Shown: positions 2,573 to 29,994 of the stretch, one piece after another
How positions within the stretch are numbered: the first letter of the stretch is position 1
Layout of the letters: each line of letters opens with the position of its first letter
Assembly (NCBI GenBank): GCA_900314495.1
Contig: OMVJ01000023.1
Coordinates: 1-34,260, forward strand
Origin: an uncultured Olsenella sp.
Lineage (GTDB): Bacteria; Actinomycetota; Coriobacteriia; Coriobacteriales; Atopobiaceae
Length of the DNA stretch: 34,260 nt
Reading direction: 5' to 3'
The notes under the pieces: generated by a model
Seen by the model: only the letters and a program-made list of their open reading frames with translations
Databases searched by the model: none
Told to the model about the DNA's origin: nothing
Translations under genes and position numbers: made by a program

Positions 2573-2639
2573 TTCGTGTCATGTATCTTGCAGCAAGCTT
2601 GCCATATGAGTCTTGGCAGACCATTTGGAGGATAGAAAG

Positions 2640-4625: not shown

Positions 4626-7142
4626 CTAATGGCTGAAGTGGCGGCCAGTCTTGAGCGTGTCTGCATCGCCTCCACTCTTGTGACGGAACGCGACGCAGCA
4701 CGCAATGCCCAGTGCAATTCCTGCGACGGAGAGTGCCCCGCCCATCTTCAGGCCAGCTGGCTTGTACTGTGCCGTCACTTGATGGGTGCCCGGGCTAATG
4801 GCGAAGCCAATGAATCCGTAGTTGGCACGGAAGGTGCGGACCGGTTGGCCGTCCACCGTTACGCTCCAGCCAGGGGTGTTGGGGATGGCAAGACAGGCCA
4901 CGGAATCCGCCAAGACATTGATGGTGCCCTCCACCCTGGAGCTCGACGTCTGATGGAACTCGCTGGGGGCGTCAAGCTGGGGCTCCGAGAATGATGGTGC
5001 TACCAGGTTAAGGCCTGCGGCAACATCATCAGGAATGATCACGCAGCCTGAGAGGAGCTGCCTGCGCTCGTCCACGGTGCTAGCCGCAGCCTCGCTCTCG
5101 GTTGCGTAGACGAAGGAGTCGGTGGCGATGTTTGCCGACCGGTTGTAGTACACATAAATATCGCCAAACTGCTTCTGCAGCTCAAGCCAGCCAAGGTCAT
5201 CCAGCGGTATCTTCGAGAGCACATAGCGCACACCCAGGAAGTTGTAGATGGGCAGCTGATCCGCGCCGAGTGTGGCATCCTGGTAGGCCGTGCCGCCCGA
5301 GATGACGTCTGGCCACACGTTGCGGTAGAAGTCGATGATGCCAGCGCTGGTTGTGGAGTTGTATGCGTTGACTCCGTTGTACCCCTGTACCATGGCATCG
5401 TTGAGGCGTGTCCAATCGCTGTACGTCTTAACCACTCGGTAGAGGTCATCGTCCATGCTACTGATGTAGTCGAGTGCAGCCCGGGTGTTGGCGTCGGCAT
5501 CGGTTGCGGCGGGGAAGTCGGAGACGTTCGAAATCCCGCGCGCGTTGGTGGCAAAGAAGCCGTCGGCGACGGGCATGCCAATGGTGACAAGGCACACGAG
5601 TGTCACAAGCGCATTGGCCATTCTGCCGCCGGAGTGCCTTGCGCCGAGAACCAGCAGCGTCAGCAGGAGTACGGTCCCAACCAGGAAAACCGCGCTCATC
5701 AGGCGGCCGTCCATCGCGACGGATGCAGACCAAAGGATGGCTGCAAGGGTGACGACCGCAGCGACAACGAGCTCAGGCCAGCAAATCATGCGCTCGGACA
5801 CGACCTTCTCCCAGCCGCAGGCGCAGCCGATGAGCAGCGGGAAGATGATGGCAAAGCTGCCGCGGAACTTCAGGTCGAAGGCGCTGGAAAGGGCGGGCAA
5901 GAAGAAGTTCACGCAGAACAGAACGGTCAGCAGCATCGTAATGCCGGCGAGCACGCGGTCCCGGCCAGTACCGTGGCGGAACACATGCCCCAACGCCTGG
6001 CTGCACAGGATGAGGGAGCCTCCGCCCACGCCTACAGTTACGAATTCGTAGCTGTTCATGAGGTAGGCGTAGGAGTCATCGTAGGGAACGATGAACTGCG
6101 GGAATATGCCGCCGGTCTCCACAAGGCTGCTGCCCAGGATGCGACTAAGGATTAGGGGAAGCCACTGCAGTGGCACAAAACCGGTAAGGTAACGCACGAA
6201 GCGTTGGGAGAAGCTCATACCGCCCGCGCCAGTCACGCGCGAGGAATCTCCAAGAATCAGGAGTGAGTAGGGTACGAGAAGAACGCACGAGGCCAGGAGG
6301 CCGCAGACCACGGGAAGGGCGACCCTGCCCACCATGCGAAGGTAGCCGGTGCTTGCCTCGTGCGAAACATGCCCCGCGCGGATAAGGGTGTATGCCACGC
6401 CAAAGAGCAGCACCATATAGCCGGAGTATACGCCCATGAGCACGCTTGCCGACGTGACGAGCATGACGCCCAGGAACTGCGCCGTGCCCTGGCGCTCCAT
6501 CAGGAGCTCGACGACAAGTGCCAGCAGTGCCGAGAGCACGTATACGGCACCGAGCCAGTAGTGCTGGCCCCACAGGACCAGCCAACCGCCAAACGCGAAG
6601 AGCGACCCGCCCAGCACGCGCGAGAGCGGAGCCCTGCAGTAGAAGGTGAGCAGATGGTCAAAGAGCAGGCCGGCAATCAGGAGTTTGAGTACTTGCCCCA
6701 GCGCGAGTACACGGCCCAGTCGCTGCGTGTCAAGCAACAGGGCCAGCGGAATGGTGACCAGATTGAAGGGGTCGTTCATCCAAGAACCATAGGCCACGAA
6801 GGCGCTGCCCAGGCCGTAGTGGAAGTCCCAGAGACCCCAGGTGCCAGACTGAATGCCGCGAATGTAGTCCAGGTAGAAGGGTACGTACTGCTCCAGCGTG
6901 TCGGAACCCACGTCCCAGTACCCAAAGCGAAAGCTGCCGAAGAGGCAATTCCAATAGATTGCGAGTGCGCCTAGCACTATGATGCCTGCCAGCAGCAGAA
7001 ACTCGCTTGCGGGTCGCTTGCGGGTGTCATGCTGCTGTGCAAGCGTGGGTACCAGGAGGGTTCCCACGAGGGCAAGAACCACAGCCGCAAGTGCGATACC
7101 GACTAAATATAGGTAGTTCGACCAGTCCATGATTGCTCGCAT
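4626..7142 (-). CDS. YfhO family multi-pass membrane protein (putative GT-C glycosyltransferase)
   Basis: An 838-residue protein with a dozen or so hydrophobic helices through the first ~540 residues, a large polar segment (about 540-800) and a final helix near the C-terminus. After the second helix comes the family signature region FGYWDVGSDTLEQYVPFYLD followed by GLGSAFVAYGSWMNDPFN, matching Pfam YfhO. Bacillus YfhO and relatives add sugars to lipoteichoic acid or other surface polymers from polyprenyl-phosphate sugars outside the membrane; the exact substrate here is unknown. The acidic residues of the first outer loop are candidates for the GT-C catalytic Asp. ATG 7142 gives the longest form; ATG 7130 is equally possible, and neither has a clear ribosome-binding site. 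The gene is divergent from wecE and ends at the shared terminator near 4565. Confidence 0.85.
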   Translation of the reverse strand: MRAIMDWSNYLYLVGIALAAVVLALVGTLLVPTLAQQHDTRKRPASEFLLLAGIIVLGALAIYWNCLFGSFRFGYWDVGSDTLEQYVPFYLDYIRGIQSGTWGLWDFHYGLGSAFVAYGSWMNDPFNLVTIPLALLLDTQRLGRVLALGQVLKLLIAGLLFDHLLTFYCRAPLSRVLGGSLFAFGGWLVLWGQHYWLGAVYVLSALLALVVELLMERQGTAQFLGVMLVTSASVLMGVYSGYMVLLFGVAYTLIRAGHVSHEASTGYLRMVGRVALPVVCGLLASCVLLVPYSLLILGDSSRVTGAGGMSFSQRFVRYLTGFVPLQWLPLILSRILGSSLVETGGIFPQFIVPYDDSYAYLMNSYEFVTVGVGGGSLILCSQALGHVFRHGTGRDRVLAGITMLLTVLFCVNFFLPALSSAFDLKFRGSFAIIFPLLIGCACGWEKVVSERMICWPELVVAAVVTLAAILWSASVAMDGRLMSAVFLVGTVLLLTLLVLGARHSGGRMANALVTLVCLVTIGMPVADGFFATNARGISNVSDFPAATDADANTRAALDYISSMDDDLYRVVKTYSDWTRLNDAMVQGYNGVNAYNSTTSAGIIDFYRNVWPDVISGGTAYQDATLGADQLPIYNFLGVRYVLSKIPLDDLGWLELQKQFGDIYVYYNRSANIATDSFVYATESEAAASTVDERRQLLSGCVIIPDDVAAGLNLVAPSFSEPQLDAPSEFHQTSSSRVEGTINVLADSVACLAIPNTPGWSVTVDGQPVRTFRANYGFIGFAISPGTHQVTAQYKPAGLKMGGALSVAGIALGIACCVAFRHKSGGDADTLKTGRHFSH

Positions 7143-7286
7143 TCGTTGTGTGAACGTTTGGGCGGCTGCTGGGAAGCGCCAGTCTTGGCACTATATTCTA
7201 GGTTATTCGTGTCTCATTACGTCGCTGTGCCAGTGGCGGGTGGGCTTGTCGTTCAGTGGCATTGTGCATGCGGATTCGGAGTCTTC

Positions 7287-8423
7287 ATGATCAACTTCAA
7301 CGTGCCGCCCTATTTGGGTACAGAGATGAACTATGTGCGTGAGGCTGCGGAGGTCAACCACAAGATCTGTGGTGACGGTCCCTTCTCTCGTAGGTGCCAC
7401 ACGTGGATGGAGAACCGCTTCAGGGCAGAGAAGGTGCTCCTTACCACCAGCGGAACCTCCGCGCTGGAGATGGCGGCCGTCCTGTGCGACCTCAAGCCGG
7501 GTGACGAGGTCATCCTTCCCAGCTTCACCTTCAGCAGCACGGCAACTGCCTTCCAGGCGGTGGGTGCCACTCTGGTCTTTGTGGACGTGCGGCCCGACAC
7601 CATGAACCTGGACGAGAAGAAGATCGAGGCGGCCATCACGGACCGCACGCGCGTGATCGTGCCCGTGCACTACGCTGGCGTCGCGTGCGAGATGGACACG
7701 ATCATCAACATTGCCCGCAAGCACAACTTGCTGGTGGTGGAGGATGCCGCACAAGGCGTCATGAGCACCTACGAGGGGCGCTACCTTGGCACCATCGGCA
7801 CCTTCGGCTGCTACTCCTTCCACGAGACCAAGAACTACTCCATGGGTGAGGGCGGTGCCATTGTCATCAACAACCCGGAGTACATAGACCGGGCGGAGAT
7901 CATTCGCGAGAAGGGCACCAACCGCCAGCGCTTCTTCCGCGGCCAGGTGGACAAGTACACGTGGGTGGATCGTGGTAGCTCCTACCTGCAGAGCGACCTC
8001 AACGCCGCGTACCTGTGGGCCCAGTTGGAGCAGGCGGACAAGATCAACGACAACCGTCTGGCCACGTGGCAGTTCTATTGGAACCACCTGAAGCCCCTGG
8101 CGGACGAGGGTCTCATCGAGCTGGCGCACATTCCCACGGAGTGCACCCACAACGCGCACATGTTCTGGCTCAAGTGTGCCGACCTGCAGGAGCGCACGGC
8201 ATTCATCAGGTTCCTGAAGGAGCGTGGCGTCCAGGCAACCTTCCACTACATTCCGCTGCACAGCTCGCCGGCGGGTCTGAAGTTTGGCCGCTTCAACGGC
8301 GAGGACGAGTACACCACCAAGGAGAGCGACCGTCTGGTGCGTCTGCCCATGTACTATGGCCTTTCCGCCGCGGACCGTCAGGCCGTGGTCGATGCCGTGC
8401 TCGCCTTCTTTGAGCAGGCCTAG
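7287..8423 (+). CDS. wecE: dTDP-4-amino-4,6-dideoxygalactose transaminase (WecE/RffA type)
   Basis: A 378-residue PLP enzyme of the DegT/DnrJ/EryC1 fold. It follows E. coli WecE (from memory) along its full length: GDGPFSRRC near the start, LLTTSGTSALEMAA, PGDEVILPSFTF, VDVRPDTMN, VPVHYAGVACEMD, VVEDAAQGVMSTY, SFHETKNY with the Schiff-base lysine K182, and FHYIPLHSSPAG near the end. The family converts dTDP-4-keto-6-deoxyglucose to dTDP-Fuc4N with glutamate as amino donor. Such a sugar carries a free 4-amino group that can be acylated. ATG 7287 is chosen because it matches the family start (MI.FN.PP) and CGGAG lies 5 bases upstream. It converges with an ATP-grasp gene whose stop is 30 bases away. 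No dTDP-glucose dehydratase gene is in the window, so the precursor must come from elsewhere. Confidence 0.9.
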   Translation: MINFNVPPYLGTEMNYVREAAEVNHKICGDGPFSRRCHTWMENRFRAEKVLLTTSGTSALEMAAVLCDLKPGDEVILPSFTFSSTATAFQAVGATLVFVDVRPDTMNLDEKKIEAAITDRTRVIVPVHYAGVACEMDTIINIARKHNLLVVEDAAQGVMSTYEGRYLGTIGTFGCYSFHETKNYSMGEGGAIVINNPEYIDRAEIIREKGTNRQRFFRGQVDKYTWVDRGSSYLQSDLNAAYLWAQLEQADKINDNRLATWQFYWNHLKPLADEGLIELAHIPTECTHNAHMFWLKCADLQERTAFIRFLKERGVQATFHYIPLHSSPAGLKFGRFNGEDEYTTKESDRLVRLPMYYGLSAADRQAVVDAVLAFFEQA

Positions 8424-8436
8424 CGCCGGTTGCCGT

Positions 8437-8453
8437 GGCGGTAGCCTGCCGCC
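8437..8453. other. Short hairpin between convergent wecE and ATP-grasp genes
   Basis: GGCGGTA (8437-8443) pairs with TGCCGCC (8447-8453), with one G-U pair and a 3-base loop. It sits just past the wecE stop and touches the stop codon of the opposing gene. With no T-run it is at best a weak or rho-assisted terminator. Confidence 0.3.
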
Positions 8454-9634
8454 TATGCCAAGTCAATGCAGGTTGCGACCTGCCTTAAGATGCTGTCGGT
8501 TTCACCGTCACGTGGGTTGCTGACGATGAGCTGGCCTATGCGGTCCGTGCCGTCGTGAGCCTCCTGCACGCGTGAGCCTACGGTCACATCCAAAGATATG
8601 CTCACGCGCTCGCTGCGGAGGGCAGCCAGCCGCTCAAGGTCAACGGCACGTATGGTGCCCGTCGCGCGCGAGAAGACCAACCGCGCCTCGCAGGCGTCTT
8701 GCTTGTTGGGATTGAAGTCGCATTTCTCGCCAAGGGCGCAACGGATGATCTGCTCGTAGTAGTCGATGCCCGTGTGCAGATGGATGAGCTCTGGTATGCA
8801 GGTGGCGCCGCAGCGGGCGCCGGCCTCAATGATGGAGACCTCGCCATCGGCCGTGATCATGGCATCGGAGTTGATGGCACAGTTGTCCATGCCGGCACAC
8901 TCCACGATGGCCTGCATCTCGTGCTCGATTGCGTTGATCGTAGCTTGCTCTGCCTTGAACGGGAACGAGTGCCCTGCGGGAATGGTCACGCCCTGGTTGC
9001 TCCAGACTGCTTTGTTGTGCGGCAGGCAAATCTGCAGCTTGCCGTCCCTCACAAAGGCGTCGATGCCAATCTCCGTCCCCAAGACGCAGCGCTCGACCAC
9101 GTAGTGGGTGGTGTGGCTTGCGCTGACGGAGGCATCGAAGGCCGCGGCTAGCTCCTCGGGGGAGTCTACGCGCGTCACGCCGCGCGAGCCAGAGACGTCA
9201 CAGGCCTTGACCATTACGGGGTAGCCAAGGTCCTCCGCTGCCCAGCGGGCCTCATCCTGGTCGTGTACGATACGGAAATCCGAGGTGTGCACGTGGCCTG
9301 CGAAGACCTGCTTCATGAGGGACTTGTCCGTGAGCGTGCGCGCCGCATGCTCGCTCACGCCGGAGAGGCCCAGCCGGTCGCACACATAGCCAACGGTGCG
9401 TACGGCCACGTCGGTACCTGTGGTCACGATGCCATCCACATGCTCGTCGCGTGCCAGGGCGAGCACTCCCTCGCAGTCGCGCGTGTTGAGGTAGGAGACC
9501 TGGTCTGCGTGGGAGAAACCCGGGTAGTTTCCAGGGATGCTCACCACGAGCGTCTGGCAGCCAAGGTCGCGGGCCTTGTCGATGAGGGGCACCTGGTACA
9601 CACCTGCGCCGAGCACGATGAGCTTCTTCTGCAT
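8453..9634 (-). CDS. ATP-grasp carboxylate-amine ligase-like protein
   Basis: A 393-residue soluble protein. Residues 1-95 form the N-terminal Rossmann-like pre-ATP-grasp domain (KLIVLGAGVYQVPLIDKARDLG). Residues about 105-310 form the ATP-grasp domain, with the lysine and glycine-rich loop VMVKACDVSGSRGVTRV at 140-156 and the metal-binding SIIEAGARCGA around E270. ATP-grasp enzymes of this shape activate a carboxylate as acyl phosphate and join it to an amine, or make a carboxylated product. It ends an operon with a PLP enzyme and a polyprenyl-type GT2 (39 bases behind the GT2 stop) and converges on wecE. I infer that it could ligate an amino acid or other acid to an amino sugar or to its precursor, but the substrate is not visible. 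The ATG at 9634 is the natural start, just before MQKKLIVLGAG. Confidence 0.82.
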   Translation of the reverse strand: MQKKLIVLGAGVYQVPLIDKARDLGCQTLVVSIPGNYPGFSHADQVSYLNTRDCEGVLALARDEHVDGIVTTGTDVAVRTVGYVCDRLGLSGVSEHAARTLTDKSLMKQVFAGHVHTSDFRIVHDQDEARWAAEDLGYPVMVKACDVSGSRGVTRVDSPEELAAAFDASVSASHTTHYVVERCVLGTEIGIDAFVRDGKLQICLPHNKAVWSNQGVTIPAGHSFPFKAEQATINAIEHEMQAIVECAGMDNCAINSDAMITADGEVSIIEAGARCGATCIPELIHLHTGIDYYEQIIRCALGEKCDFNPNKQDACEARLVFSRATGTIRAVDLERLAALRSERVSISLDVTVGSRVQEAHDGTDRIGQLIVSNPRDGETDSILRQVATCIDLA

Positions 9635-9672: not shown

Positions 9673-10593
9673 CTACAAGTTGACCTTGTCCCGAATGATG
9701 AACTGCGGTGTCCCGTTGATGGACATGACAATTTCGCCTAGGTACTCGCCTATGACACCCAAGACAATGAGGACGATGCCGAAGAAGATGAGCATGACGC
9801 TCATGGTGGAAGCCCAGCCCATGAGCATGGTGGGGTCCATCAGTTTTCGGATGATGGTCACGATGCCGGCTATGATGCCAATGAGTGCCGTGGCAAACCC
9901 GAGGAACGAAGCGATGCGTAACGGCAAGACGGAATAGTTGAAGTAGCTGAGCCAGAGCTTCATGAGCTTCTTCAGCGTGTAGCCGGAGTGGCCGTACTCT
10001 CGCTTGTGGTGTTCCACGTCTACGTTGCCAATGTTGTGTGATGTGCGGTAGAAGAGCCCATCCACGTAGGGATTGTAGGAGTCGGACTTGATGATTTCGT
10101 CCCTTACGTTGTGGGTGATGACCCAGAAGTTGCTGGACCGGATGTCCTTGGGACGACCGAGCAGAGTGCGGGACGAGACCTTGTTGAGCCAGCTGGTGAA
10201 GTTCTTGGCCCTGCTGTTCTTACTCTCTGGATAGACGCCGTACACAATGTCGTAGCCCTCAGAAATCTTGCCTAGCAGTTTGAAAATCTGCGAAGGGTGG
10301 GTCTGCAGGTCATCGTCCATGCCCAGAATGTAGTCGCCTGTGGTGAAGTGCATGGCACACATGAGACCATTGTGCTGGCCAAAGTTGCGCATGAGGTGAA
10401 TGCCGTGCACGCAGGGGTAGTCATCGGCAAGGCGGCGTATCTCTGCGAATGTACCGTCGGCAGAAGAGTCGTCCACAAGGACGAACTCGCACTCGTAGCC
10501 CTCGTGGTGCTCGAACTCATCCATGGTGAGTTCGACGACCTCGCGAATGGACTTCTCGGAGTTGTAGCAGGGGATTACAACGGAAACTAGCAT
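9673..10593 (-). CDS. GT2 glycosyltransferase with C-terminal membrane helices (ArnC/GtrB type)
   Basis: A 306-residue enzyme. MLVSVVIPCYNSEKSI starts the GT-A fold, FVLVDDSSADGT is the first acidic motif, and the DXD site is ILGMDDDLQTHP. MRNFGQHNGLMCAM is characteristic of the group that glycosylates undecaprenyl phosphate (ArnC, GtrB). The C-terminal third carries two long hydrophobic segments (about residues 228-249 and 263-287) that anchor it to the inner membrane face. It probably loads a sugar, perhaps the WecE product, onto a polyprenyl phosphate carrier; the donor is an inference. Its start overlaps the last 7 bases of the upstream PLP-enzyme gene, which implies translational coupling. 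Second gene of a three-gene minus-strand operon. Confidence 0.87.
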   Translation of the reverse strand: MLVSVVIPCYNSEKSIREVVELTMDEFEHHEGYECEFVLVDDSSADGTFAEIRRLADDYPCVHGIHLMRNFGQHNGLMCAMHFTTGDYILGMDDDLQTHPSQIFKLLGKISEGYDIVYGVYPESKNSRAKNFTSWLNKVSSRTLLGRPKDIRSSNFWVITHNVRDEIIKSDSYNPYVDGLFYRTSHNIGNVDVEHHKREYGHSGYTLKKLMKLWLSYFNYSVLPLRIASFLGFATALIGIIAGIVTIIRKLMDPTMLMGWASTMSVMLIFFGIVLIVLGVIGEYLGEIVMSINGTPQFIIRDKVNL

Positions 10594-11564
10594 GCGGATC
10601 TCTTTTCGGTGAGGTAGTCAAAGTAGAGGGGTAGTCCGCCCGTGTGCAGGAACAGAATGCGCTTGCCCGTGATGCCTTGATCGGCAAGGTAGCGCAGCAG
10701 GCCCGAGAAGGCCTTGGCGGAATAGATGGGGTCCATGGGGATGCCGTTCTCCTGCAGCATGCGGTCGCTGACGGCCGTGACGGACTCATCGTAGATACCA
10801 TATCCGCCCAGGTTGTAGCCGCACTGCAGGTTGATTGCCGCGTCCAGTACGTCGTCTGAGGGAAGCGGCTTGCCGACTTTGGTGAAGTAGCCGCTGACGG
10901 CGCCGCGCAAGATGCGGGAGGCACGCTCCCGCGTGCGGGAGGAAATGGAGATTCCCACAATGTCCCGCTGGTCGCCCGTGGCAAGGCTGCCAGCAATGAG
11001 TCCGCCCATAGAGGCGCCGGTGCCGTAGGGGAGCGCCAAGAGGTCGAAGGGCTGGTTTTGGTTCTCCCACGTGCGAATTTCCTGGTAGGCGGCTGCATAG
11101 GCTATGGCGCCCGTACCCTCGTTACCCTCGCCATAGCGGTTGCCAAAGATGTAGTAGGGGCTTAACCCCTGTGCCTGGAAGTAGGCGAAGGCGTCATCCA
11201 CGGCTTTGGCGATGGCGCCCTTCTCGCACGGCATGAGCTTCACGTCAAACTGCGACGTGATGGTCTGGTTGAAGGAGATGCCATCGTCAGTTACCGAAGT
11301 GACGACCATGGCGCAGGGAACCTGGTATACGTGGCAGAGGTTGGCGAGGACACGGCATAGGTTGGAGTGGCGGTCTCCGTACATGATGAGGGCGTTCTTG
11401 CCAGATGCGCGCATGTCGTCTAGGTAGGCCTTGGCAATGCGTACCTTGTTGCCGCCAAAGGAGAAAGGCAGTAGGTCGTCGCGCTTCATGAAGAGCTGGT
11501 TGCTCTGGGTGTCGAAGCCCCGGAGCTTCTGAATCGGAGTGTCGAAGATGATGCTCGGTGCCAT
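10587..11564 (-). CDS. ACC deaminase / D-cysteine desulfhydrase-like PLP enzyme
   Basis: A 325-residue fold-type II PLP protein. FMKRDDLLPFSFGGNKVR places the Schiff-base lysine at K40; the Ser/Asn-rich stretch YGDRHSNLCRVLA replaces the usual QSNH; PYGTGASMGGLIAG (179-192) is the PLP phosphate-binding loop; HTGGLPLYFDY lies close to the C-terminus as in ACC deaminases and D-cysteine desulfhydrases. Known members cleave small amino acids such as ACC, D-cysteine or D-serine. Its place as first gene of an operon with a GT2 and an ATP-grasp ligase argues for a role in making or modifying an amino-acid-like building block for a glycan rather than general catabolism; this is inference. ATG 11564 has AGAGG 8-9 bases upstream; the open frame reaches 11615, but the residues before 11564 do not look like the family. 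Confidence 0.8.
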   Translation of the reverse strand: MAPSIIFDTPIQKLRGFDTQSNQLFMKRDDLLPFSFGGNKVRIAKAYLDDMRASGKNALIMYGDRHSNLCRVLANLCHVYQVPCAMVVTSVTDDGISFNQTITSQFDVKLMPCEKGAIAKAVDDAFAYFQAQGLSPYYIFGNRYGEGNEGTGAIAYAAAYQEIRTWENQNQPFDLLALPYGTGASMGGLIAGSLATGDQRDIVGISISSRTRERASRILRGAVSGYFTKVGKPLPSDDVLDAAINLQCGYNLGGYGIYDESVTAVSDRMLQENGIPMDPIYSAKAFSGLLRYLADQGITGKRILFLHTGGLPLYFDYLTEKRSAC

Positions 11565-11666
11565 GGGCCTACACCTCTTGCCTGCGGTTGTTGCTCGTCC
11601 CGCCCGAAGCGTCATGCTTGGGCGGCAAACTCATTCTGTCAGCATAGCCGAAGTCTCAAGGATTGT

Positions 11667-13835: not shown

Positions 13836-13932
13836 AGGGGTGTCCCGTTCCAGGCCGCATGCGGACAACAGACGCAACAACGCAGACGCAACGAAGCAAG
13901 ACAGACGAAGCACGACGGCAAGAGGTGGATGC

Positions 13933-15552: not shown

Positions 15553-15589
15553 CGCCTGCCCCACACGAACTTTGCATTTGACTTGCAAC

Positions 15590-15620
15590 CGCCCGCCAAC
15601 TGGCCATCAGCTGGCGGGCG
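15590..15620. terminator. Strong hairpin after the NlpC/P60-like gene, without T-run
   Basis: CGCCCGCCA (15590-15598) pairs perfectly with TGGCGGGCG (15612-15620); CTG/CAG continues the stem inside after one mismatch, leaving a 5-base loop. It sits 38 bases past the stop at 15552 and 83 bases before ATG 15703. The bases after it are ACCGTGTAAC, so a classic U-tract is missing. It may act as a rho-assisted terminator or RNA-stabilising end. Confidence 0.55.
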
Positions 15621-15702: not shown

Positions 15703-16869
15703 ATGAACGTCACCAACACCATGGACGCGCTGCTCGCCCACGGCTATACCCGCAAGATGGCCAACGCCTACCTGGGCGTGGTCCAGCGCGAGGACGCCAA
15801 CACCATCTTCGACCCAGACTACCGCGCGTGGGCCCACTCCCACGGCTTCTATGCCATCGACGCCTACGCCTTCGGCCTCACCGAGGAGACGGTGGATGAC
15901 TATCTCAGCGACTACGAGTACCACCGCACCTGGCCGCTCAACAGTTGGAACCGTGCCTGGATCGACGACAAGATGACCATGAACTACATGCTCTTTGGCA
16001 CGGAGTGGGAGGACCTCATGCCCGAGGCCTACTTCTACGCCTCCACCAAGGGGCTCATCCCGCTGACGCATGCCCACGGCAAGGGCGGCTACCAGGCCTT
16101 CCTCGAGCTCCTGCGCGAGAAGGGTGAGTTTGCCTGCAAGCCCTGCAACGGCCAGCGCGCCGCCGGCTTCGACAAGCTGGGCTACGCGGACGGCCAGTAC
16201 CTGGTAGACAACCAGCCAGCCACGGAGGACGACGTCATCCACTTCCTGGACGAGCACCCCAACAACATCTACACGGAGTTCTTCCACCCTGGCATGGGCA
16301 TGGAGAAGGTCAGCCCCGTCATCCACACCCTGCGCGTGCTCACCTGCAACCCCACGGGCATGGAGGTGCACATGTGTGGCACCTACCTGCGCTTTGCCGG
16401 CGGCACCAACGGTGACGACTCCAAGGCCAACTATATCTACCCGGACAAGCACGACATCTACGACATCAACGTGGACTTCGATCTGCAAACCGGCGAGTTC
16501 GGCAAGGGTGCCCTCATCTACCCCAACCGCGTGGTCATGACGGACACCCACCCGGAGACGGGTGGCTCCTTCCAAGGCAAGATGGACTGCTGGCCGGAGC
16601 TGCGCGAGCGTCTCATGCGTCTCTCCGAGCACCTGGACCTCTTGGAGTGGATGGGCTACGACGTCTGCTTCACCGACCACGGCCCCAAGATCATCGAGAT
16701 CAACTCCCACTCCGGCGTCAAGTACCTGCAGTTCTACCACCCCTTCAAGAAGGACCCCTTCCTGCGCGACTACTTTGCGGCCAAGCAGGAGAAGATCGAC
16801 GCCCTGGTGAGGCGCGCCGAGGCCGACCCCAACCTGCTGGTCCGTCGCAACAATGGCGGTGCGTACTAA
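15703..16869 (+). CDS. Sugar-transfer-associated ATP-grasp protein (ATPgrasp_ST-like)
   Basis: A 388-residue soluble protein. The first 120 residues are helical and include the segment DDYLSDYEYHRTWPLN and WIDDKMTMNYMLF, followed by MPEAYFY, which is the familiar entry region of the sugar-transfer-associated ATP-grasp group (PF14397). EFACKPCNGQRAAGF (143-156) takes the place of the ATP-binding lysine and glycine loop. IYTEFFHP (189-196) fits the hinge, HTLRVLT (208-214) follows, and IIEINSHSG (330-338) holds the metal-binding E332 and N334. Enzymes of this group sit in polysaccharide loci; the substrate is mostly unknown. ATG 15703 has GAGGAG 6 bases upstream. The stop TAA is directly followed by the ATG of a second ATP-grasp gene, so the two products are probably made in equal amounts and act together. 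Confidence 0.8.
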   Translation: MNVTNTMDALLAHGYTRKMANAYLGVVQREDANTIFDPDYRAWAHSHGFYAIDAYAFGLTEETVDDYLSDYEYHRTWPLNSWNRAWIDDKMTMNYMLFGTEWEDLMPEAYFYASTKGLIPLTHAHGKGGYQAFLELLREKGEFACKPCNGQRAAGFDKLGYADGQYLVDNQPATEDDVIHFLDEHPNNIYTEFFHPGMGMEKVSPVIHTLRVLTCNPTGMEVHMCGTYLRFAGGTNGDDSKANYIYPDKHDIYDINVDFDLQTGEFGKGALIYPNRVVMTDTHPETGGSFQGKMDCWPELRERLMRLSEHLDLLEWMGYDVCFTDHGPKIIEINSHSGVKYLQFYHPFKKDPFLRDYFAAKQEKIDALVRRAEADPNLLVRRNNGGAY

Positions 16870-18111
16870 ATGGCGGATGAGCTGCAAGGCAAGCGCACCA
16901 TTCTGCTGCTGGGCGGCTCGCAGCAGCAGGTCGTTGCCATAGAGACCGCCAAGCGCCTGGGCTATCGCACCGTCCTGTGCGACTACCTGCCAGACAACCC
17001 CGGCCAGTACCACGCGGACGTCTTCTACCAGGAGTCCACCACGGACCGCGAGACCATGCTGCGCATCGCACGGGAGGAGCACGCCCAGGGCGTGCTTGCT
17101 TACGCGTCAGACCCGGCGGCGCTCACGGCGGCCTACGTGGCGGAGCAGCTGGGCCTGCCCACCAACCCGCTTGCCGGCGTGGAGAAGCTCTCCGTAAAGC
17201 ACCTCTTTCGCGCCCACCTGCACGAGGCCGGTCTGCCTTGCCCCCAGGCGACGCCCGTACCCGCGGACGCCACGCCTGAGCAGGCAATTGCCGCCAGCCA
17301 GGGCATGCGTCTTCCCGTGGTGCTCAAGCCCACGGACAGCTCCGGTTCCAAGGGCGTGACGGTGCTGGAAGAGCGCGACCCCCAGGCCTTTGCCGCGGCC
17401 ATCGAGCACGCGGCGGGCTTCTCTCGCAACCGCATCCTGGTGCTGGAGGAGTACATCCGCGCCAAGTTCCCCCGCGTCATAGGCGGGGACATCTTCATTG
17501 CGCATGGCAAGGTGGCCTTCTGGGGCCTCATGAGCTGCCTGCGCGACGAGTCCCTGGGTGGCCTGGTGCCCGTGGGCGAGCGCTTTCCCTCCGGTCTCTC
17601 GCCTGAGCAGACGGCCAAGGTGAAGAAGGTCATCCAAGACCTGGTGACCAGCCTGGACCTGCAGTTTGGCGAGATGAACGTGGAAGTCATTGTGGGCGAG
17701 GACGACGTGCCCTACTTCCTGGAGCTGGGCGCCCGCGCCGGCGGCAACATGATTCCCGTGCAGCTGAGCGACATAAGCGGCATAGACCTTGTTGAGGCCA
17801 ACGTGCGCTACGCCATGGGCGACGACTCTCTGAGCGTTGCCTTTGACGAGGCCGACGCACAGGGCCGCGCCAACTGCACCTACGTGCCCCACAGCAGCGT
17901 GGACGGAACCTTCCGCGGCCTGGACATTGCGCCCGAGCTCGCCCCGCACGTGTACCGCACGGTGCCCTACGTGCAGGAAGGCGCCCATGTGGAGCGCTTC
18001 GACGGCGCCAACAAGGCGCTGGGCATTCTGTTCCTGCGCTTCGATTCCGTGGAGCAGATGGAGCAGATGCTGCCGCGCATGAACGAGCTGGTACGAGCGC
18101 GGGTAGAGTAA
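16870..18111 (+). CDS. ATP-grasp carboxylate-amine ligase-like protein
   Basis: A 413-residue soluble protein of the biotin carboxylase/CPS-like ATP-grasp type. Residues 9-95 are the pre-ATP-grasp domain (TILLLGGSQQQVVAIETAKRLG). LPVVLKPTDSSGSKGVTVL (148-166) is the ATP-binding lysine and Gly-rich loop; VLEEYI (191-196) is the hinge; EMNVEVIV and YFLELGARAGGN (268-293) give the metal-binding acid and Asn. A C-terminal domain (about 325-413) completes the fold. It resembles the ATP-grasp at 8453-9634 in layout (both end the core with E.GAR.G) but differs in sequence. The start codon abuts the previous stop (TAAATG), and a DUF6020 membrane protein begins 28 bases downstream, so three genes form one operon. 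A role in adding an amino acid or other acid to a glycan building block is inference. Confidence 0.83.
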   Translation: MADELQGKRTILLLGGSQQQVVAIETAKRLGYRTVLCDYLPDNPGQYHADVFYQESTTDRETMLRIAREEHAQGVLAYASDPAALTAAYVAEQLGLPTNPLAGVEKLSVKHLFRAHLHEAGLPCPQATPVPADATPEQAIAASQGMRLPVVLKPTDSSGSKGVTVLEERDPQAFAAAIEHAAGFSRNRILVLEEYIRAKFPRVIGGDIFIAHGKVAFWGLMSCLRDESLGGLVPVGERFPSGLSPEQTAKVKKVIQDLVTSLDLQFGEMNVEVIVGEDDVPYFLELGARAGGNMIPVQLSDISGIDLVEANVRYAMGDDSLSVAFDEADAQGRANCTYVPHSSVDGTFRGLDIAPELAPHVYRTVPYVQEGAHVERFDGANKALGILFLRFDSVEQMEQMLPRMNELVRARVE

Positions 18112-18139
18112 GGCTATCGACCTGCTTTGGAGGTGTCGC

Positions 18140-19864
18140 GTGAGCGTAAGAAGGGAAGGGGGTCACGGCTTGTGTCGCTGGGTCGACGGACCCATGTGCG
18201 TATTTCTCGCGTTTATCCTCATGCTCTTCTTCTACGTTGGGATGGCCGTAACTCGGACGGGTACCTCATTCGGTTACCTAACGAGTCCGGTACGCATCGC
18301 GCTCTCTGCTGTGGCTTGCCTAGTGGTATGGATTGCACTGACTCTGCTGTGCTCACTGGCCTTCCGCGGACTGGATGTCCTAGCACGGCATCAGAGGGTA
18401 GGCTCTCATGCGCGGGCGGATGCCGCACGCGAACCTTCCCGTTGGCTGACCACGCTTGCCTTTGTCGCCATCCTTGTCTGCTGGGCCCCCTTCATAGCGC
18501 TGAGCTTTCCAGCTTCTATCAACTTCGATTACTTCAACCAGCTGAGCCAGTTCGTAGGGGACCGTCCCCTCAGCAACCACCATCCCGTGCTGACCACGTG
18601 GGTCTTCGGGCTGCTGTACCAGTCAGGGCACATCCTCGCTGGCGCGCGGGGCGGTCTCTTTCTCACTGTAGTTGTGCAGGCGCTGGGGCTGGATGCACTC
18701 TTCAGTTGCGCGCACCGGTGGATGTGCCGCATGGGAGCCAAGCGCGGTGCGCGCATTGCGCTGGTGGCCTTCGCAGCGCTTTGTCCTGTGCTTTCGCTGT
18801 ACTCGCACGTTCTGGCCAAGGACGTATTCTCCGCCGTGACGCTGGGATTCTTTGCCCTGCAGCTGGTTGTAAGAGCGTGGACGGATCAAGGCGGCGGTAC
18901 GCATGAGCTCGAGATGCCCAAGCTCGCCTCGCTTCCTGCCATCGGAGTGTTGGGCGTGCTCTGCTCCCTTACCCGTGGCAACTGCATCTATGTGGTGCTG
19001 GTTGGCCTGCTGGCGTATGCCTGTATCGCTCGCAAGGGGACGCACCTTAGGGTCATGTTGACGGCGGCGTTGGTTGCAGCGGCTTACTTCGGCTGGAACA
19101 ACTTGCTAGTACCCGCTGCTGGAGTGCAGCCGAGTGACTCCGCCTTGGTGCTGAGCATTCCTCTACAGCAAACGGCGGCCTATGCGCGGGACGCAGGCGA
19201 CGCAACGTCAGAAGAATGTGCCGCTATTCAAGGCATTCTGGATGTGGACTACGACCAGCTGGGCGACTTGTATGACCCAGCCATCGTGGATCCGGTGAAG
19301 ACGCACGTGAAGGGCTTGGACGATGCCAGCTTGAGGACGGCCTACCTTGCGGCGTGGCGCGACCAGGGCGTGCGCCACCCCGTAGTGTACTTGGATACCT
19401 TGCTGCGAGCTAACGTCGGTTACTGGTACCCATTCATGAGTGGTGCGAGCATCCAGGACCTTGATTACTTCCCGAACACTGCGGAGATGCACTACCAGTG
19501 GATGCAAGGCTTGGGGTACCCCTTCAGCGGAATGCTCTCTGATCTGGGGACGGCGGGCTCCATTCATGAGGTCGCGCGGGTGCAGCTGGAGGCCCGTGTT
19601 GTATGGCTTGCCGGCATACCCGTTGCTGGCTTCCTGTTCCAGCCCGCTTTCTATGCTTGGGCCTGCCTGATTCTTGGCACGTGGACGCTCTGCCGTCGTT
19701 CTCATGCGTGGCCGGTCTTTGCCATGAGCTTCGTGGTGTGGGCGGTGTGCTGCGTCTCTCCGCTCAACGCGTCCCTGCGTTACGCGTTGCCGCTGGTGGT
19801 TCTTCTGCCCATCATGTGGGCTGGCGTTGCTGGTGTGGGTGGCCGGCGGGGAGCCAACGAATAG
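18140..19864 (+). CDS. DUF6020 family multi-pass membrane protein
   Basis: A 574-residue protein with about ten hydrophobic segments. After the third comes a loop with FPASINFDYFNQLSQFVG and LSNHHPVLTTWVFG; the Asp followed by the HHP motif is the family hallmark and resembles the catalytic loop of GT-C glycosyltransferases. Between residues about 325 and 435 there is a large polar loop, followed by helices to the C-terminus. It is a paralogue of the protein at 29991-31721, which has the same order of helices and the matching YPGAYSYDTPTQVAQ and TQHPVVHT motifs. Likely function: sugar transfer or glycan handling outside the membrane; this is inferred from fold resemblance. The GTG at 18140 is preceded by GGAGG (18129-18133) at 6 bases. 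Third gene of the ATP-grasp operon. Confidence 0.75.
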   Translation: MSVRREGGHGLCRWVDGPMCVFLAFILMLFFYVGMAVTRTGTSFGYLTSPVRIALSAVACLVVWIALTLLCSLAFRGLDVLARHQRVGSHARADAAREPSRWLTTLAFVAILVCWAPFIALSFPASINFDYFNQLSQFVGDRPLSNHHPVLTTWVFGLLYQSGHILAGARGGLFLTVVVQALGLDALFSCAHRWMCRMGAKRGARIALVAFAALCPVLSLYSHVLAKDVFSAVTLGFFALQLVVRAWTDQGGGTHELEMPKLASLPAIGVLGVLCSLTRGNCIYVVLVGLLAYACIARKGTHLRVMLTAALVAAAYFGWNNLLVPAAGVQPSDSALVLSIPLQQTAAYARDAGDATSEECAAIQGILDVDYDQLGDLYDPAIVDPVKTHVKGLDDASLRTAYLAAWRDQGVRHPVVYLDTLLRANVGYWYPFMSGASIQDLDYFPNTAEMHYQWMQGLGYPFSGMLSDLGTAGSIHEVARVQLEARVVWLAGIPVAGFLFQPAFYAWACLILGTWTLCRRSHAWPVFAMSFVVWAVCCVSPLNASLRYALPLVVLLPIMWAGVAGVGGRRGANE

Positions 19865-21311: not shown

Positions 21312-23414
21312 GTGGGTCCGTTCAAGCTAGCGATGGTATTCCTCTTCCTGGAAGTCTTCGTCCCGGGGTACCTCATCCTGCGGTGCTTCCGGTTTCCACG
21401 TACCTGGTCTGTGTGCCTGGCCCCCGTTGTGACCGTTGGCGCGGTTGCCATCTGGTGCCAGGCCCTGGCGTTCCTTGGAATCTTCGCCTCGCCCCTCAGC
21501 GTCTTGCTTCCCCTGTGTGCCCTTGCCGCGGTGCTCTTTCTGGTGTTGGAGCGCAACCGCAGCGACCTGCAGCTGCCAGACCTTGGCTGGGGAGAAGTCC
21601 TGCTCTATGGCGTCATCGGCATTGTGCTTGGTTACACCCTGTACGTTCAGCTGCTGCCCACGGGCGAGTACATCTACGTCCTGTACGACGTTACCCAGCA
21701 CCTGAACCTGGTGAAGGCCTTCGCGGACTCGGGACACATGTCGTCCCTGGGTACCAGCGCCTACCTCACGGCGGCGGACGTTGCCATAGACCCCACGCCC
21801 AACCGCGTGTTCTACCCGGCCGCCTACCACACCATGTGTGCGCTGCTGGTGCAGGGCACCTCATGCTCCGTTCCCATGAGCCTGAACGTTGCCACCGTGG
21901 TCTTCTGCTTTGTCGCGTACCCGGTGTCCATGCTGGCGTTCCTCGCGGTGGCGTTCCCCAACAACAGGAAGGTGCGCCTGGCCGGGTCAGTCTCCTGCCT
22001 AGCACTCATTGCCTGCCCCTGGATAACCATTACCTGGGGCCCCGTCTACCCCAACCTGACGGCAATGAACCTGCTGCCAGGCGCCATGGCCATCTTCGTG
22101 CTGCTATTCTCTGCCGAGCGGAGGCGCAGGGAGTACGCGGACATGGCCCTGGCGCTGCTGGTGTCTGTGGTGGCCATAGGCCTGCTGCACCCCAACGGCG
22201 TGTTTGCGGCCATTGTGACCCTGACTCCCTTCTGCATTGGTCGGCTGTGGCGCCTGCCGCAGACCAAGGGCAAGGCCCTGTCGCGCCGCCTGCTGCCGCC
22301 CGTCGCGTTCGGCGTGCTCGTGCTGGTGTTCTGGACCCTGTGCTACAAGCTGCCGGCCTTCCAGGGGACGGTGTGGGAGAACTGGCCGGCCTATGCCCAC
22401 CCCGTGCAGGCGCTGGTGAACATACTCACGCTGAGCTTCAGCTTCGGCAGGTTGCACAACGAGTACGCCATCCAGTTGGTTCCGGGAATCATGGTCATCA
22501 TCGGTCTTGTCAAGCTGCTGCATAGGAGGGACGAGCGCTGGCTGGCAGTTGCCTATGTGGCGTGGTGCGTCTTCTGCTATGTGGGCATGACCTCAGAGGG
22601 TGAGCTGAAGCACTACCTCACGGGCTTCTGGTACACGGACCAGGTGCGCGTGGCGGCCTTTGCGGCCCTGTGCGCCGTGCCGCTGGTTGCGGCGGGCCTG
22701 GTCTGGGTGCTCGATGATGTGACTGCCCTGGTGACGCAGTACAACGCAGCCAGGAAGGCCAAGACCCACCCCGCCAAGATTGCGGTGGTCGTGCTCGCCC
22801 TGTTCGTGGCCGGTACCTTCGTTCCCAGCTTCGACCTGCCGGCGGAGCGGGACGCGACACCGCCGCAGGTAATAACGTATCTCTCGGACGGAGAAAACGC
22901 CCTCATACGCAATCAGTCCTACCCAGCGGTGAGGACCACGTTCGGTGACTGGCAGATGGCTGTCCAAGAGCAGTACGCCTTCGTCATCCCCTTCACCAAG
23001 CCCGAGAGGGCATTCGCAAACCGCGTGGCAAAGGTTACGGGCGACGAACTCGTGATCAACGACCCCATGGATGGCAGCTACTTTGCCTACTCCGCCTGTG
23101 ACGTGCGGTGCTACTATCGCAACTTCATTGGCGTGGGCGACACGAACGAGACGGAGGCGAGCAAGGCCATCCGCCTGCACCTGAGCGAGTACGCGACGAA
23201 TCCAGAGGTGCAGGAGGCCGTCAAACAGACGGGTGCCACGTACGTGATGAAGCTGAAGCTGGCGTGGTCGGACCTCTCGTCCATGAACCTGCGCGGCGAC
23301 TTCAACTTTGATGACTTTGCGGGCATCCAGGCAATTCAGGATGACACGCCCGGGTTCGAGAAGGTGCTCGAGTCTCCCGGCTGCACCTTGTACAGGATTG
23401 TGCCGACTGCGTGA
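21312..23414 (+). CDS. DUF6541 family multi-pass membrane protein
   Basis: A 700-residue protein with roughly 12-14 hydrophobic helices up to residue ~510 and a polar C-terminal domain of about 190 residues, probably outside the cell. The first large loop holds YVLYDVTQHLNLVKAFADSG and RVFYPAAYHTMCALL; a loop acid followed by a YPA/YHT motif is the mark of this family and recalls GT-C glycosyltransferases. The outer domain contains GDELVINDPMDGSYFAY. The protein at 25549-27618 has the same motifs in the same order (GDELVVNNPMDGSMFLY), so the two are clear paralogues on opposite strands around a subtilisin gene. Start: GTG 21312 is used; ATG 21333 is an alternative, and neither has a strong ribosome-binding site. 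Substrate unknown; surface glycan transfer is inference. Confidence 0.78.
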   Translation: MGPFKLAMVFLFLEVFVPGYLILRCFRFPRTWSVCLAPVVTVGAVAIWCQALAFLGIFASPLSVLLPLCALAAVLFLVLERNRSDLQLPDLGWGEVLLYGVIGIVLGYTLYVQLLPTGEYIYVLYDVTQHLNLVKAFADSGHMSSLGTSAYLTAADVAIDPTPNRVFYPAAYHTMCALLVQGTSCSVPMSLNVATVVFCFVAYPVSMLAFLAVAFPNNRKVRLAGSVSCLALIACPWITITWGPVYPNLTAMNLLPGAMAIFVLLFSAERRRREYADMALALLVSVVAIGLLHPNGVFAAIVTLTPFCIGRLWRLPQTKGKALSRRLLPPVAFGVLVLVFWTLCYKLPAFQGTVWENWPAYAHPVQALVNILTLSFSFGRLHNEYAIQLVPGIMVIIGLVKLLHRRDERWLAVAYVAWCVFCYVGMTSEGELKHYLTGFWYTDQVRVAAFAALCAVPLVAAGLVWVLDDVTALVTQYNAARKAKTHPAKIAVVVLALFVAGTFVPSFDLPAERDATPPQVITYLSDGENALIRNQSYPAVRTTFGDWQMAVQEQYAFVIPFTKPERAFANRVAKVTGDELVINDPMDGSYFAYSACDVRCYYRNFIGVGDTNETEASKAIRLHLSEYATNPEVQEAVKQTGATYVMKLKLAWSDLSSMNLRGDFNFDDFAGIQAIQDDTPGFEKVLESPGCTLYRIVPTA

Positions 23415-29020: not shown

Positions 29021-29994
29021 ACGTCCTCTTTGCCATAGACGACAACTTTGCGCCGCAGCTCTCCACCACCATCATCTCCTTGTGCGAGAACAACCGCGAC
29101 GCGGAGGACATTCACCTGTATGTGCTGGGCATGGGGCTGGCCGAGCAGACCATTGCCAACCTGGCTGGCCTGGTCCAGCGCTATGGCCGCGAGCTTGATG
29201 TGATTGACGCGGGCAACTTCATGGAGTCCTTTGACGGGTTCGACACGGGCGGGTGGAACCAGGTGGTGCTGGCCCGCCTGCTCATGGGCAGCTATCTGCC
29301 AGAGAGCGTGCACCGCGTGATCTACCTGGATGCGGACATGATTGTGGTGGACACCCTTCGCCCCCTGTGGGAGACGGAGCTTGCTCCCGGCAAGGTTCTT
29401 GGTGCCGTGATAGAAGCGACCATTGATGACGGCCGCCTGCAGACGCTGAACCTGACGGACAGCTGGTACTTCAACGCCGGCATGCTGCTGGTGAACCTTG
29501 ACCGCTGGCGTGAGGAAGGCTGCGAGCGGCGCCTGGTGGAGTACTGCCGCGTAAACCGCGACCACCTGACGGCCAACGACCAAGACGCCATATCTGGCGA
29601 ACTCAAGGGACAGATCCAGCCCGTGCCCGTGAGCTACAACTGGGGCAACACGTACGAGTTCTACCCTTATCGCTTCCTCAAGGGGCTTATGGACCCCGTG
29701 CCCTACTATCCCGAGGATGAGTACGAATACGCCGTGGCCCACCCCGCCGTAGTGCACTTTTGGGGTGAGGACAAGCCTTGGCGCGAGGGCAGCACCCATA
29801 CGTTCGCAGCTGACTACGACCGCTACCTCTCCATGGGACCGTACGCTGGGACGCCCAAGGTGCAGGGTTGGACTGGCTACTTCAAGGCGTGGAAGGCCTT
29901 CAACGTGCTGACGTACCCCTTCCCGGGGCTTCGCTACCGCATCATCACCGCGCTGGTGCCCAAGATGCTTGCCAGGAGGGCGAAGAACAAGTGA
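29017..29994 (+). CDS. GT8-family glycosyltransferase
   Basis: A 325-residue GT-A enzyme of the LgtC/glycogenin type. MNVLFAIDDNFAPQLSTTIISL is the family start, VIYLDADMIVVD is the DXD metal site (about residues 105-109), FNAGMLLVNLDRWRE and ANDQDAI follow in the usual order, and HFWGEDKPW gives the late His/Gly motif. GT8 enzymes move glucose or galactose with retention of configuration, commonly onto lipooligosaccharide, wall glycans or glycoproteins. The last 40 residues are basic and aromatic, which could bring the enzyme to the membrane. The start overlaps the GT4 stop by 4 bases, and its stop overlaps the GTG of the next gene (GTGA at 29991-29994), so three proteins are translationally coupled. 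Confidence 0.92.
   Translation: MNVLFAIDDNFAPQLSTTIISLCENNRDAEDIHLYVLGMGLAEQTIANLAGLVQRYGRELDVIDAGNFMESFDGFDTGGWNQVVLARLLMGSYLPESVHRVIYLDADMIVVDTLRPLWETELAPGKVLGAVIEATIDDGRLQTLNLTDSWYFNAGMLLVNLDRWREEGCERRLVEYCRVNRDHLTANDQDAISGELKGQIQPVPVSYNWGNTYEFYPYRFLKGLMDPVPYYPEDEYEYAVAHPAVVHFWGEDKPWREGSTHTFAADYDRYLSMGPYAGTPKVQGWTGYFKAWKAFNVLTYPFPGLRYRIITALVPKMLARRAKNK

Follow-up and report, generated by a model that had tools for sequence, protein, structure and literature searches.

In the enterobacterial common antigen pathway, the aminotransferase WecE makes the 4-amino sugar Fuc4N (4-amino-4,6-dideoxygalactose), which is acetylated by the GNAT protein WecD. Some O-antigens carry N-aminoacylated 4-amino-4,6-dideoxy sugars, and ArnT, of the 4-amino-4-deoxyarabinose (Ara4N) system, moves a 4-amino sugar. 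ATP-grasp genes are already known from surface-sugar clusters, and the Pfam family PF14397 (ATPgrasp_ST, sugar-transfer associated) is named for such a setting. Here we describe two adjoining ATP-grasp genes, P1 and P2, that together with a gene for a membrane protein, P3, occupy positions 15703-19864 of contig OMVJ01000023.1 from an uncultured Olsenella sp. (genome size 2.80 Mb); the window analysed is the entire 34.3-kb contig. We propose, at a probability of roughly 55%, that P1 and P2 load amino acids onto a 4-amino-4,6-dideoxyhexose, at its 4-amino group and while it is linked to a nucleotide or lipid, and that this sugar is bound for the cell surface via undecaprenyl phosphate, a flippase and a GT-C transferase.

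The locus resembles each of the described systems in part. As in PF14397, P1 and its homologues match the family model in a sugar gene setting, whereas P1 relatives are confined to the window's own order among the genomes searched and part of them have a P2 partner. A gene passing the WecE cut-offs, with a 4-amino sugar as expected product, is present as in the common antigen system, but here ATP-grasp genes adjoin WecE. The predicted GT-C fold of P3 with ArnT among its nearest structures, an ArnC-like GT2 gene in the window and a pair of EamA genes in a related locus (L058) recall the Ara4N system, whereas DUF6020, the family of P3, is a separate Pfam family and the likeness of the GT2 and EamA proteins to ArnC and ArnE lies under cut-off; to our knowledge, lipid A is not expected in this bacterial group. 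According to the part of PMC11800379 that was available, Campylobacter Cj1438C is an ATP-grasp enzyme making an amide in a surface (capsule) polysaccharide, as we predict for P1, but acting on a sugar carboxylate. In the portion of PMC2824669 available, another ATP-grasp group is predicted to ligate amino acids to surface polymers in animals. Our literature search, whose scope excluded subscription papers, found the names PF14397 and DUF6020 in no paper; among the matches listed, as judged from titles and the starts of abstracts, none dealt with the loading of 4-amino-4,6-dideoxy sugars by ATP-grasps, and a precedent in a subscription paper is possible.

A recurrent pair of ATP-grasp genes

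P1 (15703..16869, + strand, 388 amino acids, ATG start) encodes a PF14397 ATP-grasp protein and predicted amide ligase, and P2 (16870..18111, + strand, 413 amino acids, ATG start) a second, amino-acid-ligase-like ATP-grasp protein. As the original prediction stated, the P2 start touches the P1 stop (TAAATG, the junction falling at 16869/16870), and the DUF6020 gene P3 (18140..19864, + strand) follows P2 at a distance of 28 bases. The start codon of P3 is GTG, and by eye the purine-rich stretch before it resembles a ribosome site. A longer P1 open reading frame (ORF) starts with TTG at 15583; the start at 15703 is favoured because the longest possible ORF of the Olsenella porci relative is 386 amino acids. 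A promoter scan returned no sigma-70-type sites and two terminator-like sites, below shuffle level. By eye, an inverted repeat lies at about 15589-15618, in the space that separates P1 from the DUF5648 gene before it, and is absent from the terminator list. GC content at third codon positions (GC3) is 0.92 in P1, 0.87 in P2 and 0.71 in P3, a difference that may reflect distinct histories or expression.

P1 scored above the PF14397 cut-off (49.0 against 31.4 bits) and is the one protein of its genome to do so. All 14 aligned homologues matched the model (best E-value 3.3e-17), as judged by E-value, the curated cut-off having been applied to P1 itself. The best of five AlphaFold2 models, built from 14 sequences, reached a mean predicted local distance difference test score (pLDDT) of 85.2 (range of the five 72.0-85.2) and a predicted template modelling score of 0.84, with weak regions at residues 79-87 and 150-154, and has an ATP-grasp fold as modelled. 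Its best Foldseek match was a Streptomyces ATP-grasp peptide ligase (8ynq, 2.1e-5), with a template modelling score of 0.37 only; D-Ala-D-Ala ligases, pyruvate carboxylase and an inositol-phosphate kinase came lower in the list. VIA gave a three-way tie at Z 11.0 between RimK (5zct, 4.0 Å over 224), tubulin tyrosine ligase (4i4t, 4.8 Å over 254) and D-Ala-D-Ala ligase (6u1k, 4.9 Å over 232), followed by ArgX (3vpb, Z 10.9, 3.7 Å over 218) and pyruvate carboxylase (Z 10.3). We take the majority of these top structural matches to be amide-forming enzymes, that is, peptide or amide ligases. With the P1 sequence, a search of solved structures returned a chance-level match alone (E 0.25) and a search of NCBIfam models returned nothing.

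P2 passed the CPSase_L_D2 (PF02786) cut-off (39.8 against 19.8 bits). Its best sequence matches in the PDB, aligned over most of its length, were 4dim (3.5e-12) and 3vot (4.9e-10), the L-amino acid ligase BL00235; both are distant, and the setting of P2 is one of sugar rather than dipeptide genes. The two ATP-grasp genes had been called unrelated, which stands at the level of sequence but not of family, since both are ATP-grasps and P2 has a sub-threshold match to PF14397 itself (19 against 31.4 bits). ATP-grasp enzymes bind ATP and metal through the Lys of a 'KP' strand and the Glu and Asn of later strands. K146, E192, E332 and N334 are invariant in all 14 aligned P1 sequences (alignment A1, which holds 14 of the 15 order-level sequences, L060 being left out), and K153, E193, N270 and E285 in all 14 aligned P2-like sequences (alignment A2, 14 rows chosen out of 22), so that the predicted ligands appear to be kept in both proteins. 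A housekeeping reaction, which the original prediction named as evidence against itself, is not indicated by sequence for either protein; of the 27 NCBIfam matches of P2, the 25 listed all stay under their cut-offs.

The pair recurs. An order-level search of 100 relatives, own genome included, found 15 full-length P1 places in 14 genomes and two weak partial matches, and a family-level search of 140 genomes found 24 places in 23 genomes, that of G541 in two pieces. Together these make 27 P1 places, namely the 24 from the family and three order-level ones (G076, G095 and G098), P1-like matches at 30% identity or less (for example in G353) being excluded. Among the genomes searched, all from this phylum, relatives of P1 at 38% identity or more were confined to the window's own order; the closest in a named species, at 79%, is that of O. 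porci. P2, at 62% identity or more, has 11 full-length places, nine in eight family genomes and one each in G076 and G095. In 10 of the 11, own window included, P2 lies directly downstream of P1 on the same strand; in the eleventh (G056) it is upstream of P1, from which a single GT2 gene separates it. For seven pairs, inspected at base level, the gap measured -1 to 22 nucleotides (nt), and the aligned ends of the other three pairs are 16 to 40 nt apart. Because it recurs in 10 of the 11 P2 relatives, the adjacency of P1 and P2 is not a matter of chance. A tree of 21 P2-like proteins groups window P2 with seven others in a supported clade (eight members, 99/98) made up solely of P2 genes of the P1-linked kind (62% identity or more).

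Linkage to sugar aminotransferases

We read the neighbourhoods of 15 of the 27 P1 places, comprising the window itself and, for the other 14 places, stretches of 12-20 kb, together with two extra stretches that hold P2-like genes alone (L068 and L069); genes in the related loci were called with a simple GC3 script, which failed on low-GC L068. In 14 of these 15 places a sugar aminotransferase, either WecE-type or DesI-like, is encoded no more than 10 kb from P1, and it is the main partner that the original prediction overlooked. The same 14 genomes hold 29 PF01041 genes (E-value of 1e-30 or less) in about 33.7 Mb, from which a hand calculation, rather than shuffling, gives a chance expectation of about 2% per stretch of this size; the loci are related to one another. 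In an aminotransferase tree the WecE-type and DesI-like proteins form two fully supported halves. P2-like genes share the association, WecE or DesI-like genes lying within 1.5 kb in 17 of 30 P2-like loci, the window's own included, and in L069 the DesI-like ORF overlaps the P2-like ORF when longest starts are taken. In L058 a single strand carries a series of ten ORFs in the order P1, GT2, ATP-grasp, EamA, EamA, WecE, ATP-grasp, Wzx, DesI-like and GT2. The aminotransferase linkage, which holds in 14 of the 15 places, makes the 4-amino group of a 4-amino-4,6-dideoxy sugar the likely acceptor. ATP-grasp genes beside aminotransferases most plausibly encode ligases by which an amino acid is joined to this amine, and the activity predicted for P1 and P2 is ATP-dependent formation of an amide in which an amino acid takes part. 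The linkage makes the substrate directly testable in vitro.

The window's own aminotransferase (7146..8423, + strand) is a WecE-type dTDP-4-amino-4,6-dideoxygalactose transaminase that passed both NCBIfam cut-offs concerned (PRK11706, 627 against 375 bits; TIGR02379, 616 against 434.85 bits). Beside it lies a third, L-amino-acid-ligase-like ATP-grasp gene (8453..9634), whose earlier identification held good and which is on the minus strand; it passed the cut-offs of ATP-grasp_4 (47.4 against 27 bits) and LAL_C2 (30.1 against 29.4 bits). Elsewhere in the genome, contig C20 holds relatives of the O. porci DesI-like and GT2 genes (82% and 81% identity) with a Wzx flippase gene and an RmlC-type gene as neighbours. 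Genome-wide we found two strong full-length PF01041 matches, an RmlB over its cut-off and a Wzx at 67%. The cell-surface sugar setting suggested by the original prediction is supported.

The same evidence bears on two other readings. P1 might amidate a sugar carboxylate, that of a uronic acid, with an amine that P2 prepares, much as the TupA-like Cj1438C, in the available part of PMC11800379, amidates glucuronic acid at its C6 carboxylate; P1 is likewise a sugar-associated ATP-grasp. We consider this very unlikely. The aminotransferases to which P1 is linked speak for a sugar amine instead, and a uronic-acid route is made less likely by two findings: no TupA-named family was among the nine families matched at an E-value of 1 or less by any of the 14 P1 homologues, and the own genome has one partial and borderline UDP-glucose dehydrogenase match (27.3 against 27 bits). 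Presumably a TupA Pfam model was present in the profile library used. It also seems quite unlikely that the product of P1 and P2 is a free dipeptide or a small metabolite that has nothing to do with sugars, the two genes just happening to lie in a surface-gene region; the place of BL00235 among the nearest solved relatives of P2 would fit such a product, but the aminotransferase linkage would not, nor would the Wzx, GT2 and GT-C-type genes around P1 or the family name of PF14397.

Three loci may extend the proposed loading of a 4-amino sugar. In L055, L056 and L057 a P2 paralogue lies next to WecE and is followed by an unknown gene on the opposite strand and then by P1 and P2; a GNAT gene comes after P2 in L055 and its cluster mate after P2 in L056. 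We hold it tentatively possible that the three ATP-grasps of each such locus build a sugar-linked peptide stepwise, to be placed by a GT-C enzyme. With similarly low confidence, this sugar-peptide would grow on the amine of a 4-amino-4,6-dideoxyhexose with neither ribosome nor non-ribosomal peptide synthetase, sometimes capped by the GNAT protein, before GT-C placement on the surface. A protein of 327-360 amino acids is also conserved near P1 (L055:8166-9248, L056:13686-14768, L057:4626-5609 and L061:12512-13576), and the one copy scanned, that of L055, had no Pfam and no NCBIfam match. Near P1-P2 in L055 (13297-17418) is a gene for a protein of 1373 amino acids with ricin-type lectin repeats and amidase and glucosaminidase domains.

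P3 and a proposed route to the cell surface

P3 passed the PF19484 (DUF6020) cut-off (128.6 against 28.3 bits), and its model, built from 25 sequences (alignment A3, P3 with 24 of the 30 ORFs found), had a pLDDT of 88. ArnT was the best Foldseek match (E 9.4e-4) and the sole one at 0.001 or less. VIA placed ALG12 (Z 18.1, 5.1 Å over 295) and ArnT (Z 16.8, 4.5 Å over 297) first, followed by Pmt, PglB and oligosaccharyltransferase (OST) entries; the top 36 rows span Z 7.7-18.1, the next row falling to 5.4, and we take all 36, save one glycosylphosphatidylinositol transamidase chain, to be GT-C transferases or complexes that hold one. GT-C enzymes have an acidic residue in the first outer loop, and D130 of P3 is kept in 90% or more of the 25 homologues, as judged from the alignment rather than from active-site geometry. 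On the structural matches, the modelled fold is that of a GT-C transferase rather than an exporter, though such a fold alone proves neither donor nor acceptor. Of the earlier claims for P3, a GT-C-like membrane protein was borne out by the model, and export by it was rejected in favour of sugar transfer on the VIA and Foldseek results.

Also rejected was a trio P1-P2-P3 made in fixed ratio. Of the 15 places, three have a P3-like DUF6020 gene (one scoring 120 bits or more, weaker ones being left uncounted) no further than 10 kb from P1; for YfhO genes the count is 10 of 15 and for any of YfhO, DUF6020 and DUF6541 it is 12 of 15. One strand of the O. porci locus reads DUF6020-P1-P2-DesI-like-GT2-DUF6020, the first DUF6020 gene being 204 nt upstream of P1; the closest P3 relative found (50% identity) belongs to this species and is separated there from P2 by two genes. 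Because this order differs, and because the relatives of its DesI-like and GT2 genes lie on C20 here, the 28-base spacing between P2 and P3 may have arisen by a rearrangement specific to this lineage. P1 and P2 have DUF6020 genes as partners in the window genome and in O. porci and not in most places.

A route can be drawn from these genes. Computation shows the families, the modelled folds of P1 and P3, the recurring pair and the link to aminotransferases, whereas we infer the substrates, the order of steps, the product and the GT-C enzyme that accepts it. RmlB yields the precursor dTDP-4-keto-6-deoxyglucose, which a 4-aminotransferase (WecE in the window or the DesI-like protein of C20) would turn into a dTDP-4-amino-4,6-dideoxyhexose. 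P1 and P2 would activate carboxylates, most likely those of amino acids, for attachment at the 4-amino position, each adding one group, either in sequence to the same acceptor or to two acceptors. The N-acylated sugar may then be moved to undecaprenyl phosphate by a PgfS/ArnC-like GT2 protein, turned over by a flippase and placed on a surface polymer by GT-C proteins, P3 and perhaps YfhO and DUF6541; the EamA/Wzx genes fit such a route. In the window, the GT2 gene (9673..10593, minus strand; Glycos_transf_2, 99.1 bits) probably serves the transfer onto undecaprenyl phosphate, its nearest NCBIfam models being PgfS (162 bits) and PRK10714 (132 bits), both under cut-off.

Several observations weigh against this route. 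P1 does not need P2, which is not adjacent in 17 of the 27 places, a count that includes G056, with the two genes one gene apart, and G519, where a piece of P2 sits at the edge of one contig and P1 on a different one. More distant P2 relatives in G491 (53%) and G492 (47%) have no P1 match in their genomes. The linkage counts cover 15 of the 27 P1 places, and in the exceptional place, L060, no aminotransferase was seen before the contig ends 3.1 kb upstream. The window WecE lies 7.3 kb from P1 with an adjoining ATP-grasp of its own, the DesI-like gene being on another contig. DesI-like and GT2 proteins remain under their NCBIfam cut-offs (for the O. porci protein, L054:10648-11889, TIGR04427 gives 253 against 650 bits and is a nearest model only), P2 misses that of LAL_C2 (22.6 against 29.4 bits), and the structures matched by the P1 model include carboxylases and an inositol-phosphate kinase. 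Rare co-occurrence of the pair, named in advance as evidence against a joint function, is not seen from the side of P2 and is partly seen from that of P1.

The frequency of P1 without P2 beside it would also fit an unlikely division of labour in which P2 and the WecE-side paralogue acylate the amino sugar and P1 works at a later stage, with the lipid-linked sugar, the polymer or a different wall component as its substrate. A gene for a YkuD wall protein precedes P1 in L059 (7038-8903), as does, by similarity, its cluster mate in L060 (1000-2913), which would suit this order of events; the L059 protein has a choline-binding match slightly under cut-off. Opposed to it, all seven of the places read that lack a P2 of 62% identity or more (L058 and L062-L067) retain the aminotransferase linkage.

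Surrounding genes and meaning for the families

Next to the GT2 gene is one for a PALP pyridoxal-phosphate enzyme resembling D-cysteine desulfhydrase and 1-aminocyclopropane-1-carboxylate deaminase (10587..11615, minus strand; PF00291, 85.5 bits), which is under all eight NCBIfam cut-offs listed and may supply an unusual amino acid. L064 (PALP gene at 13670-14650) matches the window in gene order with GT2, ATP-grasp and WecE, the WecE strand differing. Further membrane proteins are encoded at 4626..7142 (minus strand; YfhO, PF09586, 172.1 bits), which is probably, we assume, a GT-C-type transferase, at 21312..23414 (+ strand; DUF6541, PF20176, 479.7 bits) and at 29868..31721 (+ strand; a second DUF6020 protein, PF19484, 98.4 bits). 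The gene after P3 (20011-21216) encodes a flavodiiron-type protein with ODP lactamase and flavodoxin domains, probably an unrelated defence against oxygen or nitric oxide. Four window proteins have a DUF5648 domain (2613-4523, 11802-13835, 13840-15552 and 23500-25479), to which one of them adds a YkuD L,D-transpeptidase domain and another a subtilase domain.

Should P1 and P2 act as proposed, members of PF14397 would gain a defined job, the loading of a 4-amino sugar with amino acids, and DUF6020 would gain a role as a GT-C transferase. Aminoacyl- or peptidyl-sugars would then be predicted on the surfaces of Olsenella-type bacteria.

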